DNA of 64,000 bases, taken from NCBI RefSeq assembly GCF_029626225.1, contig NZ_JARUBP010000001.1, forward strand, positions 4,464,001 through 4,528,000, written 5' to 3'. The first letter of the stretch is position 1. Every line of letters begins with the position of its first letter. The notes beneath the pieces were generated by a model that saw only the letters and a list, made by a program, of their open reading frames with translations, was not told the origin of the DNA and ran no database searches. Positions 28,427 through 38,412 of the stretch are shown one piece after another. The position numbers and the translations under genes are program-made. This DNA is from Asanoa sp. WMMD1127. Its GTDB lineage: Bacteria > Actinomycetota > Actinomycetes > Mycobacteriales > Micromonosporaceae.

Positions 28427-29614
28427 TCATGTTCCGTGTGCCCGCTGTGCCCCCTCCCGTTCCGCGAAAGCCCGCAGGTCGTGCCGCTGGATCGCGGCGG
28501 CCATCAGATCCGGGAAAACGTCGGGAGTGCACGCGAACGCCGGCACGCCGAGCGCCCCGAGCGCGGCCGCGTTGTCGTGGTCGTAGCTGGGCGCCCCGTC
28601 GTCGGAGAGCGCCAGCAGCGCCACGACCTGCACGCCGGCCCCCACCAGATCGGCGACCCGGCGCAACATCTCGTCACGTACGCCGCCTTCGTAAAGGTCG
28701 CTGACCAGCACGAAGATGGTGTCGCGGGGCCGCGTGACCAATCGCTGGCTGTAGGCGATCGCCCGGTTGATGTCGGTGCCCCCGCCGAGTTGGGTGCCGA
28801 ACAGCACCTCGACCGGGTCGCTGAGGTGGTCGGTCAGGTCGACCACGGAGGTGTCGAAGACGACCAACGAGGTGCGCAGCGTACGCAGTGAGGCCAGCAC
28901 CGACGCGAACACTCCCGAGTAGACGACCGACGAGGCCATCGACCCGGACTGGTCGACACAGAGGATCACGTCACGCTGCACGGCGTTCCCGCGGCGGCCG
29001 TAGCCGATCAGCCGCTCCGGCACGACGGTGCGATATTCGGCCTGGTAATGCCGCAGGTTCGCGTGAATCGTGCGGTTCCAGTCGATGTCGCCGTGCCGGG
29101 GACGCTCGATCCGGCTGGCCCGGTTGAGCGCGCCGGTGACGGCCGCGCGTGCCTTCTGCGCGATCCGTTTCTCCAGGTCGTCGACCACCTTGCGGACCAC
29201 CTGGCGAGCCAGGTCGCGGGTCTTGTCGGGCATGACCGAGTTGAGCGACAGCAACGTGCCGACGAGGTGCACGTCCGGCTCGACGGCGGACAGCATCTCG
29301 GGTTCGAGCAGCAGCCGGGTGAGGTTGAGCCGCTCGATGGCGTCGGTCTGCATGACCCGGACAACGCTCTGCGGGAAGTACTCGCGGATGTCGCCCAGCC
29401 AGCGCGCCACCCGCGGGGCGGACGCGCCCAGCCCGCCGGTGCGGCGTTTGCCCTCGGCCTCGCCCTGGCCCTCGCCGTTGGGGCCGCGGTCGTAGAGGGC
29501 AGCCATCGCCGCATCCATCGCGGCGTCACGCCCGCCGGGTTGCCCGAGCGACTCGTCGGCGGGTTCGCCGAGCGCCAACCGCCACCGCCGGCGCCGTTCC
29601 TCCTCAGCGCTCAT
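28427..29614 (-). CDS. VWA-domain protein (CoxE-like), MoxR partner
   Basis: This 395-residue protein carries a C-terminal von Willebrand factor A domain with a complete MIDAS: DQSGSM, then GGGTDI and VSDLYEGG. The N-terminal half is helical and charged (MSAEEERRRRWRLALGE, DKTRDLARQVVRKVVDDLEK). VWA proteins paired with MoxR AAA+ ATPases typically act in metal-cofactor insertion or remodelling of protein complexes. The start ATG overlaps the stop of the preceding repeat ORF (ATGA). The open frame continues upstream through 26-residue repeats, so an N-terminally extended form cannot be excluded. Confidence 0.9.
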   Translation of the reverse strand: MSAEEERRRRWRLALGEPADESLGQPGGRDAAMDAAMAALYDRGPNGEGQGEAEGKRRTGGLGASAPRVARWLGDIREYFPQSVVRVMQTDAIERLNLTRLLLEPEMLSAVEPDVHLVGTLLSLNSVMPDKTRDLARQVVRKVVDDLEKRIAQKARAAVTGALNRASRIERPRHGDIDWNRTIHANLRHYQAEYRTVVPERLIGYGRRGNAVQRDVILCVDQSGSMASSVVYSGVFASVLASLRTLRTSLVVFDTSVVDLTDHLSDPVEVLFGTQLGGGTDINRAIAYSQRLVTRPRDTIFVLVSDLYEGGVRDEMLRRVADLVGAGVQVVALLALSDDGAPSYDHDNAAALGALGVPAFACTPDVFPDLMAAAIQRHDLRAFAEREGAQRAHGT

Positions 29615-29914
29615 CGCCTCTCCCGTCCACCGTGTGCGCCGCGGCGTCGCCCCACGGACCGCGGCGCCGCAGCCGCCGTGCGCGCCGCGCTGACCGCGTC
29701 CTGTTCGCTGTGCCCGGCACAACGTGGCCCCGCGAGTCGCGGCACCGCAGCCACCGGGCGCGCCGCGCTCTCCGCCTCCTGTTCGCTGTGCCCGGCACAG
29801 CGACGCCCCGCGAGTCGCGGCGTCGCGGCCACCGGGCGCGCGGCGTTCATCGCCTTCTTGCCCGCGGCGCGTGGCGTCGCGGACACCGGATGCGCTGCGT
29901 TCATGGCCTTTCCC
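29603..29914 (-). repeat. 78-bp degenerate tandem repeat upstream of the VWA gene
   Basis: Copies begin near 29603, 29681, 29759 and 29837. The two central ones share CTGTTCGCTGTGCCCGGCAC and CCCGCGAGTCGCGGC. The terminal copies are more diverged. The VWA start codon lies within the last copy (GCGCTCATCGCC, parallel to GGCGTTCATCGCC in another copy), so the array appears to be built from the gene's own start region. Confidence 0.75.
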
Positions 29915-30015
29915 GTCCGCGGTGGGCGGCGAAGCGGCGCCCCGTGAGCGGGCGCCTCGCGGCATCCGCGCGCGCGACGGTCGCGGCTCCGGTCGTGGCG
30001 CACCAGCGTCGTCAT
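29611..30015 (-). CDS. Repeat-built small ORF coupled to both neighbours
   Basis: This 134-codon frame starts with an ATG overlapping the DUF5682-like stop (ATGA) and ends with a TGA overlapping the VWA ATG (ATGA). The product is Arg/Ala-rich, starting MTTLVRHDRSRDRRARG, and consists mostly of degenerate 26-residue repeats (ARPVAATPRLAGRRCAGHSE). Third-position GC in one repeat is about 80%, compatible with but not proof of coding. Either it is a real linker gene, or a repeat expansion that pushed apart two originally overlapping genes while keeping translation coupled. No homologue is recognised. Confidence 0.4.
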   Translation of the reverse strand: MTTLVRHDRSRDRRARGCREAPAHGAPLRRPPRTGKAMNAAHPVSATPRAAGKKAMNAARPVAATPRLAGRRCAGHSEQEAESAARPVAAVPRLAGPRCAGHSEQDAVSAARTAAAAPRSVGRRRGAHGGRERR

Positions 30016-32399
30016 TCGATCCTCCTGCCCAAGAGAGTGCTCAGCGTGGGTAGGGCGAGTGCTGCCGTGTCGTGGTCGAGGACCGCGGTGGTGGTGCGGG
30101 CGTTGGCGCCGCCGCCGGCTACGCGTTCGCCGATGCCGCGGCGTTCGCCGGTTGCGAAGGTGCCGAAGGTGCGGCGGAGCAGGGGGAGCACCTCGGCGAA
30201 GGCGTCCGCCGGGATGGCGGCCAGCCACTCGTCGACGAGGGCGAGCAGGTCGTCGTCGTGCATCAGGAGCAGGCCGCCGCCGGCCAGGAAGCCCTCGACC
30301 CAGGCGGCGCCGGTGGCGGCGGGCACGCCGGCGGTCAGCGCGCGGCTCAGGCGCAGGCCCGCGTCCTTCGTGGACAGTCGGCCGGCGTCGTGGAGGAGCC
30401 GGGTGAGCCGGCCCGCGAGCAGGCCGTGCAGGTCGTCGCGGGTGGTCATGGCGGTGAGGGTGTCGAGCCACCGGGTGCGTTCGGCTTCGTCGCCGAGCAG
30501 GGACACCGCCGAGTGCACCGCGTCGATCCGGTCGCGTAGCTCGGCCGCCGCCTCGTCCGACAGGCTCGATGCGGCCGGCGGCAGCGCGGCGTAGATGCGG
30601 GCCAGCAGGCCACGGACGACCGCGGCCACGGACGCGACGTCGGAGCGGCGTACGTCGCCGTAGCGGACCGTGCGGGCCAGCGCGGGGATCGCGGCCATCA
30701 GGTGGGTCACGTCGGCGTCTTCGGCGGCGCGGGCGTCGAGGGCGCGGAGCACCGCGGGCCGCGCCCCGGGCAGGTCGGCGAGCAGGCAGGTCTCCAGCAA
30801 CGCCGTGACCTCGGCCAGGGTGGTCGCCTTCGCGGCCGCGGTGGTGACCTGGGCGGTCGCCGCGCCGACCACGGTCGTGCCGTAGCCGCTCGCCTCCACC
30901 AGCCGGATCGAGAACTCGGGCTGCCAGCGCAGGGCCCACTCCTCGCGGAACGTACCGGTGCTGCCGCGCCGCTCTTCCGGCTCGCCCCACGGCACGTCGA
31001 GGCAGCGAAGCTGGTGCAGCAGGTGGCTGCGGGCGAGGTCGGTGTCCTTGCGCAGGTCGAGGTCGAGCGCCCGATCGAGGGCCGACGGCTTCAGGCGCGC
31101 GGCGCGCTGGCGGGCTTCGAGGTCGCGGGCGAGCGGCACGGTGGGTACGCCCTCCGGCACCTCGCCCAGCCGTTCGCCGACGACCAGCCGGCGGCCGATC
31201 AGCTGGAGCCGCAGGTCGTCGCCCTCGCAGAGCACGGCGCCGGCGGCGTCGGTGACCTCGGCCAGCCCGGCGAGCGGCCGGCCGCGCATCGTGGCCAGCG
31301 CCTCCGCGAGCCGCGTCGCCTCGATCACGTGGGCCGGCGACGTGTCGACACCCTCCTCGCGGAGCACCCCGGCGGCGCCGACGAGCCAGCGGGGCACCAC
31401 CTCGTCGCTGGTCGTGAACAGGTGGTGGTACCACCCCGGCGAGTCGACCCCCGCTCCGTAGCCCTGCCACGACGCCAGCCGCCCATAGGTCCACGGCACC
31501 CAGGTGAACCGCACCTTCCCGCGCCGCCGGCCCCCCTTGAGCAACGCCGCGTCGTGGGCGGCGGTGACCTTGGCGCTCAACGCCGGCACGTGCCACGCGC
31601 CGCAGACCACCGCGATCTGGTCGTGCTCCTTGCGCACCTGGCGCAGCACGGTCCGCATGTGCGCCTCGCGCACGAGGTCGTACGGGTCCTCCAGCGCACC
31701 GGACCGGACCGCGGTCATGGCCTCTTCGATCGCCTCGAACGCCGGCGCCTGCCGGTGCTCGACGACGTCCTCCCACCAGCGCTCCGGGTCGTCATAGCCC
31801 GCGGCCGCCGCCAACTCACCGATGGGATCCACCGGCCGCAGCTCCGGCGCCGGCGGTCCCGGCATGGGCCCGTCGTCCTCTTCCGACTCGTCAGAGTCGC
31901 CCACCGCACCCTCTCCGGGACCGCCGCCCGCATCCGTGTCAGCCGCGTTCGCGATCGCCGCGCCCGCAACCGGCCCACCCGGCGTGTCCGATGTGGAGTC
32001 AGCTGGTTCGCCGTTCGACGGCGGCTCGTCAGTTGCCTGGTCGTCGGGATCGGGCTCGGGCCGGGCGGCTTTCGGGCGCGGGGTGGTGAGGCGGTGGGCG
32101 AAGGGCAGGTCGAAGAAGCGGACCGGGACGCCGTTGGTGACCGCCCATCGGATCGCCTGCCATTCCGGCGAGAAGACGGCGAACGGCCAGAAGGCCGCGC
32201 GGCGGGGGTTGTCGGCCGCGTAGCCGAGGAGGGCGACCGGTGGGCGCAGGCGGTCGTCGGCGACCCACTGGATCAGGTCGTCGGCCTCGGGCGGGCCCTC
32301 GACGAGCAGGATGTCGGGTCGTTGTTCTTCGAGGGCGCGTACGACCGCACGGGCCGAGCCTGGCCCGTGGTGGCGGATGCCGTAGTAGCGCTCAGGCAT
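30012..32399 (-). CDS. DUF5682-like protein, part of the MoxR/VWA operon
   Basis: This 795-residue protein begins MPERYYGIRHHGPGSARAV and has VEGPPEADDLIQWV and VVCGAWHVPALSAKV. These His/Glu-bearing motifs recall the TraB/ChaN/erythromycin-esterase-like superfamily and match proteins annotated DUF5682 beside MoxR genes; the assignment is from memory of the family. An acidic Pro/Gly/Asp-rich linker (near residues 115-180) separates the N-terminal part from a long helical C-terminal region. Its start overlaps the MoxR gene by 8 bp and its stop overlaps the next ORF. The biochemical role is unknown. Confidence 0.75.
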   Translation of the reverse strand: MPERYYGIRHHGPGSARAVVRALEEQRPDILLVEGPPEADDLIQWVADDRLRPPVALLGYAADNPRRAAFWPFAVFSPEWQAIRWAVTNGVPVRFFDLPFAHRLTTPRPKAARPEPDPDDQATDEPPSNGEPADSTSDTPGGPVAGAAIANAADTDAGGGPGEGAVGDSDESEEDDGPMPGPPAPELRPVDPIGELAAAAGYDDPERWWEDVVEHRQAPAFEAIEEAMTAVRSGALEDPYDLVREAHMRTVLRQVRKEHDQIAVVCGAWHVPALSAKVTAAHDAALLKGGRRRGKVRFTWVPWTYGRLASWQGYGAGVDSPGWYHHLFTTSDEVVPRWLVGAAGVLREEGVDTSPAHVIEATRLAEALATMRGRPLAGLAEVTDAAGAVLCEGDDLRLQLIGRRLVVGERLGEVPEGVPTVPLARDLEARQRAARLKPSALDRALDLDLRKDTDLARSHLLHQLRCLDVPWGEPEERRGSTGTFREEWALRWQPEFSIRLVEASGYGTTVVGAATAQVTTAAAKATTLAEVTALLETCLLADLPGARPAVLRALDARAAEDADVTHLMAAIPALARTVRYGDVRRSDVASVAAVVRGLLARIYAALPPAASSLSDEAAAELRDRIDAVHSAVSLLGDEAERTRWLDTLTAMTTRDDLHGLLAGRLTRLLHDAGRLSTKDAGLRLSRALTAGVPAATGAAWVEGFLAGGGLLLMHDDDLLALVDEWLAAIPADAFAEVLPLLRRTFGTFATGERRGIGERVAGGGANARTTTAVLDHDTAALALPTLSTLLGRRIE

Positions 32400-33453
32400 C
32401 GCGGGCGGCTCGGTAGAAGTCGGCCCAGCCGGGGCGTTCGCGGACGACGGTCTCCAGGTATTCGCGCCACACGACGCGGTCGGAGACCGGGTCCTTGACG
32501 ACGGCGCCGACGATGCCCGAGGCGACGTCGCCGGCGCGCAGCACGCCGTCGCCGAAGTGGGCGGCCAGCGCGATGCCGTTGGTGACCACCGAGATGGCCT
32601 CGGCGGTCGACATCGTGCCGGTCGGCGACTTGAGCTTGGTGCGGCCGTCGTCGGTCTGCCCGTCGCGTAGCTCGCGGAACACCGTGACGACCCGGCGGAT
32701 CTCGTCGAGCGCCGTCGTCGTCTCCGGCAGGTCGAGGGAACGCCCGAGTTGGGCCACCCGCCGGGTGACGATGTCGATCTCCTCGTCGACGGTGGCCGGG
32801 ACCGGCAGGACGACGGTGTTGAACCGTCGCCGGAGCGCGCTCGACAGCTCGTTGACCCCGCGGTCGCGGTCGTTGGCGGTGGCGATCACGTTGAAGCCGC
32901 GTTGGGCCTGGACCTCGGTGTTGAGCTCCGGGATCGGCAGGGTCTTCTCGGACAGGATGGTGATCAGGGCGTCCTGGACGTCGGAGGGCACCCGGGTCAG
33001 CTCCTCGACCCGGGCGATCGTGCCGCCCTCCATCGCGCGCAGCACCGGGCTCGGCACCAGGGCGGCCTCGGACGGGCCTTCGGACAGGAGGCGCGCGTAG
33101 TTCCAGCCGTAGCGGATCGCCTCTTCGGGCGTGCCGGCGGTGCCTTGGACGAGCAATGTGGAGTCGCCCGAGATCGCTGCCGCCAGATGCTCGGAGACCC
33201 AGGTCTTGGCCGTGCCGGGCACGCCGAGCAGGAGCAGCGCCCGGTCGGTGGCGAGGGTGGCCACGGCCACCTCCATCAAGCGGCGCGAGCCGACGTATTT
33301 CGGTGTGATCTTGCCGCCGTCGCCCAGCAGGTAGGTGACCACCGCCTGCGGCGACAACCGCCAGCCCGGCGGGCGCGAGCGGTCGTCGTCGGCGGCCAGC
33401 GCGGCCAGCTCTTCGGCGTAGAACTGTTCCGCGTGCGGACGCAGGGCGGTCAT
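32392..33453 (-). CDS. MoxR-family AAA+ ATPase
   Basis: This 353-residue ATPase has Walker A LLGVPGTAKTWVSEHLA (near residues 69-85), a Walker B region GGTIARVEELTRVPSD, sensor 1 FNVIATANDRDRGVNE and the arginine-finger region LRRRFNTVVLPVP. This is the MoxR subgroup, AAA+ chaperones that work with VWA proteins. ATG at 33453 overlaps the stop of the SWIM gene (ATGA). It is the presumed motor of the operon. Confidence 0.93.
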   Translation of the reverse strand: MTALRPHAEQFYAEELAALAADDDRSRPPGWRLSPQAVVTYLLGDGGKITPKYVGSRRLMEVAVATLATDRALLLLGVPGTAKTWVSEHLAAAISGDSTLLVQGTAGTPEEAIRYGWNYARLLSEGPSEAALVPSPVLRAMEGGTIARVEELTRVPSDVQDALITILSEKTLPIPELNTEVQAQRGFNVIATANDRDRGVNELSSALRRRFNTVVLPVPATVDEEIDIVTRRVAQLGRSLDLPETTTALDEIRRVVTVFRELRDGQTDDGRTKLKSPTGTMSTAEAISVVTNGIALAAHFGDGVLRAGDVASGIVGAVVKDPVSDRVVWREYLETVVRERPGWADFYRAARDA

Positions 33454-36443
33454 GCGAACTCCTCGATCATGTCGTTGCGGAAGCCGAGCACGGCGGCGAG
33501 CTGGGCGAGGTAGCGGGCGGAACGGCGGCCTTCGGGCAGACCGTCCAGCGAGCGGACGAGCGCCTCGACCCGGCCGACGAACGAGGTGGGCATGGCCGGC
33601 ATCGCCAGCCGGCACAGCTCGGACAGCTGCCAGGCGTTGTCGGGCGCCAGCACGGCCATGGCCCGCAGCGCGGCCGACGCGAGCTCGTCGGACCAGTCGT
33701 CGGCGCAGAAGTGCAGCAGCCGGATGCCGGCGGCGGTGTCGCGCCGCAGGGCCGCGGCGACCCGCCGCCCGCGGTCGGCGGCCGGGAGCACCTCGAGCAG
33801 CGGCCAGGTCAGCCGGTCGCCCAGGCCGTCGCCGTTGGGCGACGGGGGCGCCGTGTCGGCGAGGTCGAGCAGCGCGGCCGCCCAGCCGGCATCGCGCTGG
33901 GCCGCCGTGGCTCGGGCGAGCCCCCGCAACAGGACCGGCTGCCAGCCGTCGGCGACCGGCAGGGCCAGCACCTCGCGCGGGCCACGACCGGTCAATGTGG
34001 ACCAGAACGACAGCGGCGTCGCCGAGACGACCTCTTCCAGCAGCCAGGCGCCGAGGCCGACGCCGCGCGGCGGTGACGGGTCGACGTCGTCGCGGAGCAT
34101 CGGGCCGTCGATGGTGGTCGGCGCGGTGACGGTGAGCGAGCCGTCGGCGAAGTGGACGCTGGCCGCCGTGCGCGCCGCCATCCGCTCCCCGAGGGCGGAA
34201 CCGGGCAGCTTGCGCAGCAGCTCCGCGGCCACCTGACGGATCTCGCGGCGCCGGTCGTCGAGCGCGTGCTCGATCAGCGCCTCGTCGCGGCGGTCCAGAC
34301 CGGTCTCGAGCGCGCCGAGCAGCAGCACGCGGTCGTGCGGCGGTTCGGCGTCGAAGGTCTCGGCCAGCAGGTCGAGGCCCTTGGCCGGGTCGGTCGCGCG
34401 CAGCGCCACCAGGTAGGCCAGCCGTTCGCCGGGCGTGCCGGTCAACCAGTCCTGCGGGTCGGCGGTCTCCGCTTCGCCCCCCACGTCACGGAAGTAGCGC
34501 CACTCGCTCTGCCGCTGGGCGAGCCACGGCCCGCGCCGCCCGGCGACGACACCGAGCGCGGGCCGCAGCGCCGTGTCGCGCCGGCCGAGATCGAGCAGCA
34601 GCGGCAGCGTCTCCGGCGGCACGAGCAGCTGGCGCCTGCCGGCCTCCAGCAGCCACTGCCCGAGCACCGCCCGTTGCGCCGGACCGCCCCAGCCCGTCGC
34701 GCCGTCGGTGAGCAGGACGTCGAGCCGCTCGGCTGCGGCCGGCGGGACGATCGGTCGCGCCTCGTCGGGTGCGGGCGCGATCGTCGGGCGGCCCGCCAAC
34801 GGTGTCTCGCCGGCCCGCCGGTAGGTCAGCGCCACCGCGGACGCCTCCAGCAGGGCGCGCGCCGAACCGCCCGAGCCGACCCAGGAACGATCGGCATCGT
34901 CGGGCACCAGATCCGTGGCGGGCGGCGCTACGCCGGCGGGCTCGTCGCCGCCGCCGAACGGCACCGGAGAGTGCAGGCCGCGGGGCACGGAGAGGGCCAG
35001 CCGATGGCCGCCGCCGACGTCGATGCGCTCCGCCGACCACGGGCGGCGGGCCGTGCCCACCAGCGCCGCCGACAGCAGGTCGGACGGCAGCTCGGGCGGC
35101 CCGCCCGGCGCGACCCGCGGCTCACCGGGCAGCGCGGGCACATGCCGCCCCTGCGGCCAGGCGGCGAGCGGCCGGAAGCCGCCGTGCCCGTATTCGCCGG
35201 CCACCACCACCGGCCGGGCTCCGGCGGCGGCGATCAGCCAGAACGGTCGCTCGTCGTCGGGATGCAGGGCCACCGCGTCACCGGCCGGATCGACCAGGCG
35301 GCCCTCGTCGGTCGGGACCACGTCGGCGAGCAGCATCGGGGTCGACTCGCGCCAGGGCTCGGCCGCCACCGCGCGGGCATGGTCGGCCACCGCGGCCCGC
35401 ACGGGAACCGCTCCGACGGGCGCCAGGGCCGGCTCGGGCGGGCCGTAGCGCGCCTTGACCAACGCCCGCCGTGGAACGGCAGCGGGATAGAAGCAGAGGC
35501 CGGCGTCGACCACCGTGCCGGGCTCGAGGTCGGCGGGCAGCGTGCCGCCGGTCGGCGCGAACGCCAGGACCAGCGCGAACTGACCCGTCTGCCGGCCGCG
35601 TAGCCACGTGCGGCGGCTGGTCAGTCGGTCGTCGGCCGCGTCGAACCGGCCCAGCACCTCCCAGTGGTCGCGCACCTCGGGCTCGGCCAGCACGTCGTCG
35701 GTTGCGACCGGGTAGCCGACGCGGGTGCGGACGGTCGCCGCGAGGCCCGGCGGCAGCGACGGGAGCCGGCCGTGCGCGACGATCAACAGCCTGAGCAGCG
35801 CGAACTCGCCCAGCAGCCGGTCGGCCCAGTTGGCGCCGACGCCGACCACCCAACCGAGCCGGCGGACCGCCCCGGCGATGCCCGGGGCCTGCGCGTCGAC
35901 CAGGCGGGCGGCCATGGTCTGGAACGGGCGGTAACCCGACTGCTCGGTGGCGGCCAGCCCCTGCTCGATCTGGTCGGCCAGCCAGCGGTCGAGCTCGGTC
36001 AGACCCGCCTCGACCCGCTCAGCCCGCTGCTGGACGCGGCGCGCCGCGGCGGCGGGGTCGGCCAGACCTTCGCCCGGCGCCCGCGGCGAGCGTGCCGGCC
36101 GCGTGGCCCGCGCCGCCCGGTCGGCCTGCCACTCGGTCGCCCAGTCGGGTGCCTCGGGATCGTCGGGAACACCGCCGTTGGCCCAGCGCAGCAGCAACCC
36201 GAGGGTGTGTTTGCAGGGGATCTTGCGGCTCGGGCAGGTGCACCGGTAGGCGGGGCCGGTCAGGTCGACGCTCACCTGGTAGGGCCGCGAACCGGACCCC
36301 CGGCACAAGCCCCACAACATGTCGTCGAACCGGCCCTGTCCCGCCCAGTGCGCGGCGGTGATCAGGCCGCGAGCGCTCTTGGCCGCGCCCTGGTCGGGCG
36401 CGAGCGAGAGCACCTTGTCGGGAGACCAGCGTTCGACGGACAC
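33450..36443 (-). CDS. SWIM zinc-finger protein fused to a large C-terminal region
   Basis: This 997-residue protein starts VSVERWSPDKVLSLAPD and has a SWIM finger YRCTCPSRKIPCKHTLGLLL (near residues 67-86: CxC, then CxH). The half after about residue 445 begins LLSAALVGTARRPW, resembling the separate DUF5691-type protein I recall in related operons, so this may be a fusion; that is inference. GTG at 36443 is preferred since TAAGG lies about 8 bases upstream. It is the first gene of the minus-strand operon and is divergent from aspS. SWIM fingers usually bind DNA or proteins. Confidence 0.85.
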   Translation of the reverse strand: MSVERWSPDKVLSLAPDQGAAKSARGLITAAHWAGQGRFDDMLWGLCRGSGSRPYQVSVDLTGPAYRCTCPSRKIPCKHTLGLLLRWANGGVPDDPEAPDWATEWQADRAARATRPARSPRAPGEGLADPAAAARRVQQRAERVEAGLTELDRWLADQIEQGLAATEQSGYRPFQTMAARLVDAQAPGIAGAVRRLGWVVGVGANWADRLLGEFALLRLLIVAHGRLPSLPPGLAATVRTRVGYPVATDDVLAEPEVRDHWEVLGRFDAADDRLTSRRTWLRGRQTGQFALVLAFAPTGGTLPADLEPGTVVDAGLCFYPAAVPRRALVKARYGPPEPALAPVGAVPVRAAVADHARAVAAEPWRESTPMLLADVVPTDEGRLVDPAGDAVALHPDDERPFWLIAAAGARPVVVAGEYGHGGFRPLAAWPQGRHVPALPGEPRVAPGGPPELPSDLLSAALVGTARRPWSAERIDVGGGHRLALSVPRGLHSPVPFGGGDEPAGVAPPATDLVPDDADRSWVGSGGSARALLEASAVALTYRRAGETPLAGRPTIAPAPDEARPIVPPAAAERLDVLLTDGATGWGGPAQRAVLGQWLLEAGRRQLLVPPETLPLLLDLGRRDTALRPALGVVAGRRGPWLAQRQSEWRYFRDVGGEAETADPQDWLTGTPGERLAYLVALRATDPAKGLDLLAETFDAEPPHDRVLLLGALETGLDRRDEALIEHALDDRRREIRQVAAELLRKLPGSALGERMAARTAASVHFADGSLTVTAPTTIDGPMLRDDVDPSPPRGVGLGAWLLEEVVSATPLSFWSTLTGRGPREVLALPVADGWQPVLLRGLARATAAQRDAGWAAALLDLADTAPPSPNGDGLGDRLTWPLLEVLPAADRGRRVAAALRRDTAAGIRLLHFCADDWSDELASAALRAMAVLAPDNAWQLSELCRLAMPAMPTSFVGRVEALVRSLDGLPEGRRSARYLAQLAAVLGFRNDMIEEFA

Positions 36444-36479
36444 GCGCAAACCTTAGAACTCATGTACGACGAAAATATG

Positions 36480-36523
36480 CGGCCTGTGGATAACTCGAGA
36501 CACCAAACCTTATCCACAGGCCG
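36480..36523. promoter_or_regulatory. Inverted pair of perfect DnaA boxes between the SWIM gene and aspS
   Basis: CGGCCTGTGGATAA (36480-36493) and TTATCCACAGGCCG (36510-36523) are exact reverse complements of 14 bp, separated by 16 bp. Each contains the DnaA box TTATCCACA (reverse at 36485-36493, forward at 36510-36518). The block lies about 85 bp before aspS and 37 bp before the SWIM gene start, next to a short AT-rich stretch (GAAAATAT). DnaA binding is a prediction. Confidence 0.75.
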
Positions 36524-36606: not shown

Positions 36607-38412
36607 GTGATCCGTACCCATGATGCCGGAAGCCTGCGTGCCACGGACGCCGGCAGCGCGGTGACCCTGGCCGGTTGGGTGGCCCGCCGCCGTGATCATG
36701 GTGGCGTCATCTTCGTCGACCTCCGCGACGGCTCGGGCCTGGTGCAGGTGGTGTTCCGTGAGGAAGACGCCCACCACCTCCGCAACGAATACTGCGTCAA
36801 GGTCGAGGGCCAGGTCGCGCCGCGGCCCGCCGGCAACGAGAACCCGGAGCTGCCGACCGGCGAGATCGAGGTCAACGCGACCGCGCTCGAGGTGTTGTCC
36901 GAGGCCGCGCCGCTGCCGCTGCCGGTCGACGACAACATCGACGCGGGTGACGACATCCGCCTGCGCCACCGCTACCTCGACCTGCGCCGCAGCGGGCCGT
37001 CCAACGCGCTCAAGCTGCGCAGCAAGGCCAACCAGATCGCCCGTCGGGTGCTGCACGCGCGCGACTTCAACGAGATCGAGACGCCGACCCTGACCCGGTC
37101 GACGCCCGAGGGCGCCCGCGACTTCCTGGTTCCGGTGCGGTTGCAACCCGGCAGTTGGTACGCGCTGCCGCAGTCGCCGCAGCTGTTCAAGCAACTGCTG
37201 ATGGTGGCGGGCATGGAGCGCTACTACCAGATCGCTCGCTGCTACCGCGACGAGGACTTCCGCGCCGACCGGCAGCCCGAGTTCACGCAGCTCGACATCG
37301 AGATGTCGTTCATCACCCAGGACGACGTGATCGACCTCGGCGAGGAGATCGTCTCCGCGCTGTGGGAGGAGCTGGCCGGTCACCGCATCGAGCGGCCGAT
37401 CCCGCGGATCACCTGGCACGACGCGATGGCGCGCTACGGCTCCGACAAGCCCGACCTGCGCTACGGGGTCGAGCTGACCGAGCTGACCGACTACCTGCGG
37501 GGCACCGAGTTCCGGGTGTTCGCGGGCGCGATCGCGGCCGGTGGCTACGTCGGCGCGGTCGTGATGCCCGGCGGCGCCGCCCAGAGCCGCAAGGAGCTCG
37601 ACGGCTGGCAGGATTGGGCCAAGGCGCGCGGCGCCCGCGGCCTGGCCTACGTGGTGCTCGACGCCGAGACGGGCGAGGCCCGCGGCCCGGTCGCCAAGAA
37701 CCTGAGCGAGGCCCACCTCGACGGGCTCGCCGACGCGGTCGGCGCCAAGCCCGGCGATGCCATCTTCTTCGCGGCGGCCAACGAGCGGCGCGAGGCGCAG
37801 GAGCTGCTCGGCGCCGCGCGTGTCGAGATCGCGCGGCGGGCCGGCCTGGCTGACCCCGACGCGTGGGCGTTCTGCTGGGTCACCGACGCGCCGATGTTCG
37901 AGAAGGACGACGAGGGCGGCTGGACGGCCGTCCACCACCCGTTCACCTCGCCCAACGCCGAGTGGATGGACAGCTTCGAGGAGGCGCCGGACCGGGCGCT
38001 GGCCTACGCCTACGACATCGTCTGCAACGGCAACGAGATCGGCGGCGGCTCCGTCCGTATCCACCGGGCCGACGTGCAGCGCCGCGTGTTCACGCTGCTC
38101 GGCATCAGCGACGAGGAGGCGGCCGACAAGTTCGGCTTCCTGCTGGAGGCGTTCAAATACGGCCCGCCCCCGCACGGCGGCATCGCGCTGGGCTGGGACC
38201 GGGTCTGCATGCTGCTCGCCGGCGCCGACTCGATCCGCGAGGTCATCGCGTTCCCCAAGACGCGCGGTGGCTACGACCCGCTGACCGGTGCGCCGACGCC
38301 GATCACGGGGCAGCAGCGGCAGGAGGCCGGGATCGACGCCAAGCCGAAGCCGTCACCGGCGGCGCACGTCGGCACGGCCGGTGTGGCGGCGCCGGTGGAG
38401 CACACGCCTTGA
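36607..38412 (+). CDS. aspS: Aspartyl-tRNA synthetase
   Basis: This 601-residue class IIb enzyme charges tRNA with aspartate. It has an N-terminal OB anticodon domain ([23 protein letters not shown]), motif 1/2 regions ([38 protein letters not shown]), the bacterial GAD insertion (residues about 290-410) and motif 3 ([14 protein letters not shown]). GTG at 36607 follows GAGGAGA. The divergent upstream region carries a DnaA-box palindrome. The Pro/Ala-rich tail ends in a TTGA overlap with the next gene. Confidence 0.96.

Follow-up and report, generated by a model that had tools for sequence, protein, structure and literature searches.

A SWIM–DUF5691, MoxR, DUF5682 and VWA operon of Asanoa is homologous to Escherichia coli yehLMPQ and carries a putative DNA-damage promoter

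YehL is one of seven MoxR subfamilies, according to the part of PMC3893208 available, and in Escherichia coli K-12 the genes yehL, yehM, yehP and yehQ are consecutive. At least 80% of yehLMPQ is found in 5162 of 5426 E. coli genomes; the YehL system is near-universal in this species, yet it is an orphan. Among the literature matches listed, the available text gives no described function for yehLMPQ: yehQ is mentioned in butanol-tolerance strains (PMC6442406) and yehP is listed as a CRP target (PMC3105977), in both cases without a function in the parts available; the operon is not the subject of the available parts of PMC10910872, PMC4858521 and PMC5541211, and the name match in that of PMC8940909 is the name of a medium. 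No paper was found under the names DUF5682 or DUF5691. Here we describe a homologous operon in a 64,000-nt stretch of Asanoa sp. WMMD1127 DNA (the window, to which all coordinates refer), whose proteins and putative promoter point to a DNA-damage-induced MoxR–VWA motor acting on a predicted hydrolase.

The minus strand of the window holds four genes in the reading order SWIM–DUF5691, MoxR, DUF5682 and VWA. An initial annotation, made from the DNA sequence alone, had placed four such genes here, and both the open reading frames (ORFs) and the Pfam profile search, in which all assignments of the four proteins pass the cut-off, bear this out. The features are as follows.

36450..36472, minus strand: promoter motif TCGTCGTAC-N8-TAAGGT, 29 bp ahead of the SWIM–DUF5691 GTG start
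33450..36443, minus strand: fusion of SWIM zinc finger and DUF5691, the first gene; 997 aa; GTG start; Pfam SWIM E 2.8e-05, DUF5691 E 2e-132
32392..33453, minus strand: MoxR AAA+ ATPase, YehL type; 353 aa; AAA_5 E 9.4e-39
30012..32399, minus strand: DUF5682 protein; 795 aa; Pfam E 1.3e-270; N-terminal alpha/beta domain with a TIKI/TraB-like motif and C-terminal helical repeats
29615..30011, no strand: spacer between DUF5682 and VWA; 397 bp, including a 78-bp tandem repeat at 29660-29855
28427..29614, minus strand: CoxE-like VWA, YehP type; 395 aa; metal-ion-dependent adhesion site (MIDAS) D-x-S-x-S; VWA_CoxE E 1.3e-52; start taken from genus-mates

The window MoxR is 42% identical to YehL over 359 columns and the VWA protein is 36% identical to YehP, while DUF5682 shares 42% identity with YehM across a 101-column N-terminal segment and 25% beyond it. 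As judged by these alignments, E. coli yehLMPQ and the window operon are homologous, and the MoxR belongs to the YehL subfamily; both this identity and the promoter pointing to a DNA-damage response had been missed initially. BLASTP of SWIM–DUF5691 against YehQ gave no match, the SWIM finger being all they have in common, and Pfam did not find DUF5691 in YehQ. The pairing of MoxR with a MIDAS-bearing VWA, recognised at the outset, agrees with Pfam and with the D-x-S-x-S motif, and by sequence the two proteins retain their catalytic and MIDAS residues: among 130 MoxR-homologous ORFs (part of which come from overlapping loci) Walker A is found in 124, EE[LIV]TR in 128, ATAN in 130 and RRF in 129. 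The SWIM–DUF5691 fusion, at first only suspected, is real, with both Pfam families in one 997-aa protein; its AlphaFold2 (AF2) model (pLDDT 89.7) has armadillo/HEAT-type repeats as its top Foldseek matches (4rv1_C, E 1.4e-4). The CxC..CxH finger was undetected in six of 85 SWIM-family proteins (loci L069, L073, L077, L086, L091 and L126), in which the remainder of the protein is present; the finger may have been lost in particular lineages, or a draft error or missed start may account for its absence. Given these six proteins, the finger is perhaps dispensable for the core system.

We then have to ask whether these genes belong together. DUF5682 is present in 36 of 61 genomes (the window's own and its relatives); in Actinomycetota it is patchy (21 of 296 genomes), with several subtypes per genome. 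VWA adjoins DUF5682 in all of the first 30 loci and MoxR does so in 28, the two misses being L030, where the locus ends within the ORF, and L023, where there is no MoxR in the approximately 1.2 kb upstream of DUF5682. A contig scan with a MoxR alignment returned at least 587 relatives, of which the best 80 loci were retained; with six relatives and the window itself these make 87 A-type loci, which are close kin because they were picked by MoxR similarity, linkage of MoxR to the other four families playing no part in the selection. All five families (SWIM, DUF5691, MoxR, DUF5682 and VWA) occur together in 77 of the 87, and the remaining ten loci are short, at 3.9 to 12.5 kb. Within the 77, SWIM and DUF5691 form one protein in 10; in 36 they are separate and run in the direction of MoxR, and in 31 they diverge from it. 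The genes are thus not scattered among relatives, L023 being the single miss, and the proposal of a linked, poorly described system is borne out by conserved gene neighbourhoods; as far as sequence can show it, the unit is a conserved one.

More than a chance arrangement, this set of genes is found again across Actinomycetota, as well as on plasmids of Deinococcus, Hymenobacter, Rhizobium and Methylosinus. In all four plasmids examined, out of 40 matching records, the order is SWIM, DUF5691, MoxR, DUF5682, with a small additional gene after MoxR in two; the annotation includes VWA in Deinococcus and Rhizobium, and tblastn finds it in Hymenobacter and Methylosinus. The Hymenobacter plasmid has DUF5682 annotated as three pieces, and VWA is unannotated there and in Methylosinus (L133:10733-13025; L135:13065-13427); the system may be broken on these two plasmids. 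Three further arrangements were distinguished. Type B, with eight distinct loci, has DUF5682 and VWA in a single ORF, and because of this fusion we take it as direct evidence, at the level of sequence, that the two probably function as a unit; a SWIM-motif protein adjoins the fused ORF in 5/5 loci. Type C resembles E. coli: downstream there is a SWIM-motif protein in 4/4 loci, and upstream DUF4132 (by Pfam, in both of two loci scanned). Type D (five loci) consists of VWA and MoxR with a DUF5682 that has diverged; SWIM motifs were not seen there. Type B loci also contain a very large conserved ORF, approximately 1600-2000 aa from stop to stop, upstream of MoxR (L038:795-6824, L039:11758-16644 and L040:10875-15956), and type D a conserved ORF of approximately 550 aa from stop to stop upstream of VWA (L047:3655-5304); the one ORF of each kind that was scanned (that of L038 for type B) matched no Pfam family.

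Divergent loci (n = 35, all Streptomyces by record title) contain two conserved inverted elements between the SWIM and MoxR genes, each made up of TTGTCAGTG, eight bases and a -10-like hexamer. We take this element to be the RecA-independent DNA-damage promoter (RecA-NDp, PafBC), for which the consensus is TTGTCRGTG-N8-TANNNT. With C or T allowed as the first base of the -10 (TTGTCRGTG-N8-YANNNT), all 35 divergent loci have the motif at the system: 29 in both directions, five towards MoxR only and one towards SWIM only. There are 69 matches in the 1.5 Mb of 86 A-type loci and none for the reversed pattern. In the 300 bp upstream of the 49 co-directional loci, 2, 12 and 7 matches were found with 0, 1 and 2 mismatches, against 0.18, 0.10 and 0.08 expected from a background that includes Streptomyces sites. 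At one mismatch or fewer the motif precedes the first gene in 14 of the 49, and in 13 of these 14 it lies 21-31 bp from the assigned SWIM start; a leaderless transcript fits this distance, and SWIM–DUF5691 is probably leaderless. That PafBC acts through a motif named RecA-NDp is the one point confirmed by the part of PMC6789036 available.

The promoter site at this position is kept in six genomes of the window's genus. The consensus itself occurs once in the Asanoa sp. WMMD1127 genome (reversed control, 1); the variant TCGTCGTAC-N8-TANNNT has four exact copies there (reversed, 0), and the other three lie 30 bp before a PDDEXK_1 RecB-like nuclease, 30 bp before a DinB-type polymerase and 87 bp before thyX. 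Across the six genus genomes there are 22 exact variant sites, three to five per genome (reversed control, 1), of which six are at this system, six at the RecB-like nuclease, six at DinB, one at a putative 3-methyladenine glycosylase (assigned by eye) and three elsewhere; for these assignments the proteins of the own genome were run against Pfam and those of the other five were matched by their N-termini. Twenty-four one-mismatch sites yielded 10 downstream proteins, chosen for a nearby ORF start, which include AP_endonuc_2, NAD-DNA ligase and NUDIX proteins, five of unrelated families and two without a family.

One genome of the same class (family f18), taken to be a Streptomyces from its divergent arrangement, has 40 consensus sites (control, 0). 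Thirty were examined as loci and 29 have a downstream ORF within 180 bp. Eight of these 29 ORFs encode repair or replication families by Pfam (RecA, UvrA, UvrB, a RadA-like ATPase, DnaX, an O6-methylguanine methyltransferase, a dGTPase-like HD protein and a DEAD helicase), and two more are a WGR protein and the SWIM gene of this system. The former is encoded within a WGR–DUF4132 ORF heading a type C operon whose MoxR is 64% identical to E. coli YehL. Since the motif heads both the SWIM gene and the WGR–DUF4132 operon, two subtypes would have the same promoter class in one genome; among the four other type C loci it precedes the first gene in L044. Taken together, the sequence evidence supports well the reading of the promoter as the RecA-independent DNA-damage type, common to repair genes. 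Sites of the LexA kind were also considered. No exact LexA box occurs in the window; one-mismatch matches upstream of the co-directional loci numbered 15 against 5.3 expected, four of them within the gene start, and the Deinococcus radiation/desiccation response motif (RDRM) pattern was not above chance at the Deinococcus plasmid locus. The promoter motif is overlapped by a LexA-box-like GTACATGAGTTC at 36456-36467 of the window, which, read on the opposite strand, is one mismatch from GAAC-N4-GTTC.

The residues invariant in DUF5682, in alignments of 26 and of 55 sequences, are R9 H10 H11 x P13, E34 x P36, S77 P78 E79, D97 L98 P99, R244 E245 A246 x M248 and G267 x x H270; type D, the most diverged subtype, retains HHSP, L-E-L, R-E-x-Y-M and CGAFH. 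TIKI-type enzymes have a set of two His and two Glu with a conserved basic residue on a parallel beta-sheet (available part of PMC6254334), and by comparison DUF5682 has an invariant His pair, one Glu, Arg and later His, one Glu of the two being matched. In the AF2 model (pLDDT 84.2) H10/H11 follow strand 1, E34 follows strand 2, R244 lies in the helix preceding strand 262-267 and H270 comes just after that strand, and the strands are in an order fitting a TIKI-type parallel beta-sheet core. A profile of the N-domain (36 sequences) scored 29.4 against six TraB proteins, aligned at R..M/G..H, and none of 200 column shuffles reached this value (mean 12.4, maximum 19.4); two of the six TraB sequences are near-identical, and the set was drawn from E. 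coli and plasmids because the actinobacterial genomes searched held no TraB or ChaN family (0/41 and 0/60). Other searches were negative: no TraB, EreA or ChaN family was among the best 25 of 28 Pfam matches at E ≤ 10 for 55 DUF5682 proteins, a first comparison with EreA-like proteins at default settings gave no match, and a sequence search gave no relative of solved structure. The TraB/TIKI-like His/Glu motifs that the initial annotation had pointed out in DUF5682 are supported by the TraB profile result. To judge from sequence, DUF5682 keeps a set of His, Glu, Arg and His whose order and spacing are those of TIKI/TraB/EreA hydrolases, and it is probably TIKI-like.

Our best reading, and one that we favour by a limited degree, is of a DNA-damage-induced MoxR–VWA motor that would control a TIKI-like hydrolase, with SWIM and the HEAT/armadillo-like DUF5691 as putative recruiters; its regulation appears to be the strongest part and the predicted enzyme class a moderate one. 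DNA damage would give a leaderless transcript of the operon, and the MoxR ring would work through the VWA adaptor, which would hold DUF5682 and/or a client via its MIDAS face. ATP hydrolysis would remodel this complex, such that the DUF5682 hydrolase (predicted to be probably a peptidase, possibly an esterase or amidase) is switched on or off, or is fed clients. Client recruitment, perhaps at sites of DNA damage, would fall to SWIM and the DUF5691 repeats, and proteins at damaged DNA or replication forks would in the end be removed or reshaped. Tentatively, and with some doubt, this could be an unrecognised arm of the DNA-damage response common to actinobacteria (two subtypes) and E. coli (yehLMPQ with WGR–DUF4132 partners), in which a MoxR–VWA motor with a SWIM/HEAT recruiter would have a TIKI-type peptidase under its control and would cleave or extract proteins at damaged DNA, such as protein–DNA crosslinks or stalled replication complexes. 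The promoter link and the predicted hydrolase class make the operon testable and, if true, an ATP-driven, hydrolase-linked component would be added to the RecA-independent DNA-damage response.

Several observations weigh against this reading, both for the promoter and for the enzyme. The window motif departs from the consensus -35 part at four of nine bases and, because this match is poor, the promoter assignment in the window rests on the variant shared with repair genes. At one mismatch or fewer, 28 sites were counted in the Asanoa sp. WMMD1127 genome and 15 for the reversed pattern, about half of the set being noise; 19 of the 29 downstream proteins in the class-mate belong to other families (including ribosomal S6) or to none; the exact motif is missing at three of the five type C loci (L043, L045 and L046); at least 28 of the 49 co-directional loci have no upstream motif at two mismatches or fewer; and the E. 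coli locus has no significant excess of LexA boxes (10 against 7.3 expected). For the enzyme, the N-domain profile scored 23.2 against 17 EreA-like proteins, a weak value reached by three of 200 shuffles, and in an earlier alignment TraB scored 28.4 and EreA-like proteins 19.8, the latter within the range of four unrelated families (16.1-20.0). TraB and EreA-like families are known relatives; as a positive control, however, their comparison failed, with 127 of 200 shuffles as good, using small alignments, and because of this the profile test has low power. The TraB similarity thus appears to stand out, and the EreA similarity is not firm. Finally, Foldseek with the whole DUF5682 model gave no match at E ≤ 0.001 among the best 50 of 594, helical repeats dominating.

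This last result, with the lack of a solved relative by sequence, is what would be expected if DUF5682 were a scaffold without enzyme activity and its motif structural, and a TIKI-fold protein without the catalytic set, showing no endopeptidase activity, is described in the available part of PMC6254334; given that HH[GS]P, E, R-E-x-[YHF]-M and G-x-x-H are retained even in the most diverged subtype, we consider a scaffold rather unlikely. The motor itself could serve a different purpose, as in CoxD/CoxE or NorQ/NorD, where MoxR–VWA would remodel a metalloenzyme for insertion of a metal cluster or cofactor. The VWA is of the CoxE type, the E. coli neighbours WGR and DUF4132 are related to molR, formerly tied to molybdate use (available part of PMC8533742), and yehM mutations arose in copper-evolved E. 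coli (available part of PMC12409786). However, no metalloenzyme gene is seen beside the unit in E. coli or in the annotated neighbourhoods of the four plasmids, the promoter is common to repair genes, and moeA, moeB and like molybdate genes are not differentially expressed upon DdrO depletion in the part of PMC8533742 available; the cofactor-insertion function that had been suggested for the operon is accordingly improbable.

A role in phage defence or conflict, also suggested at first, would make the operon a counterpart of the MoxR–vWA ternary systems of multicellular bacteria, to which its layout is related (available part of PMC7159879), and would suit its patchy distribution in Actinomycetota, its several subtypes per genome and its presence on plasmids. 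PADLOC nevertheless returned no family at E ≤ 0.001 for the four proteins; the ternary-system model bpMoxR scored 22.1 bits, below its cut-off of 27, and the other ternary-system component families gave no match among the four window proteins in the profile search. The cluster is near-core in E. coli, the best 80 matches on viral contigs have no more than 33% identity to MoxR, and a single phage record, marked unverified, carries MoxR, DUF5682 and VWA; we regard this role as quite unlikely. That record, L136 (MT835988.1), an unverified 'Bacteriophage sp.' from faeces encoding proteins of this kind, is probably a bacterial contig. General stress proteostasis, in which the unit would unfold or degrade damaged proteins with no special link to DNA, fits the motor and hydrolase-like parts and the description of MoxR proteins as chaperone-like (available part of PMC3893208); it is made very unlikely by a DNA-damage-type promoter motif that is common to the RecB-like nuclease, DinB, RecA and UvrA/B.

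Not all gene junctions overlap as had been annotated. SWIM–DUF5691 and MoxR overlap by 4 bp (ATGA) and MoxR and DUF5682 by 8 bp, whereas DUF5682 and VWA are separated by 397 bp; the ATGA with which DUF5682 ends (30015) does not share the VWA reading frame. For VWA, a start at 29614 agrees with all five genus-mates, which align from residue 1, and YehP homology starts at residue 9 counted from it. At the same junction three genus-mates have a 4-bp ATGA overlap, one an 11-bp overlap and one a 66-bp gap. Because of the 397 bp, production in fixed ratios through coupling, as first proposed, cannot be claimed for VWA in Asanoa sp. WMMD1127. The 78-bp tandem repeat at 29660-29855 has a score of 294, and an ORF call from 29965 is a translation of it; the spacer (29615-30011) has no other match anywhere in the window. 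A YbaB gene, put forward earlier as a possible sixth part, adjoins VWA in 5/5 genus-mates and in no other locus searched, and is a neighbour confined to the genus. On the other side of the operon aspS (aspartyl-tRNA synthetase; 36607-38412) is divergent from it in 6/6 genomes of the genus, and between aspS and SWIM–DUF5691 there is a perfect 13-bp inverted repeat (36481-36493 / 36510-36522) holding two copies of TTATCCACA, which we take to be DnaA-box-like; an 11-bp core of the 36481-36522 repeat is kept in 6/6 genomes of the genus.

Compared with known systems, the operon is closest to yehLMPQ, which has MoxR, VWA and DUF5682 homologues and a SWIM protein within the same cluster but differs in gene order, SWIM being first in the window and fused to DUF5691; WGR and DUF4132 genes lie near the E. 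coli cluster, whereas neither was found in a scan of ten ORFs flanking the operon in the window. With the TIKI/TraB/EreA superfamily DUF5682 shares His, Glu, Arg and His in the same order and at similar spacing, and a TraB profile score above that of 200 of 200 shuffles; it differs in its long C-terminal helical repeats and linked MoxR–VWA motor, and its fold is a predicted one. The PafBC (RecA-NDp) regulon is alike in its promoter motif and in having recA, uvrA and uvrB as fellow members, with dinB and the RecB-like nuclease in the window's genus; it differs in that this operon is not named as a member in the literature text available, and in that the window's genus has a variant -35 element. 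Like CoxD/CoxE and RavA/ViaA, the window pair combines MoxR with a MIDAS VWA and is probably a remodelling motor, but it is joined to DUF5682 and SWIM–DUF5691 and no client enzyme is seen nearby. The MoxR–vWA ternary systems (VMAP, iSTAND, beta-propeller; available part of PMC7159879) likewise combine MoxR and vWA with further components; their third component is a different one and the window MoxR falls below the bpMoxR cut-off, whereas the type found in the window is near-core in E. coli and has a putative DNA-damage promoter.

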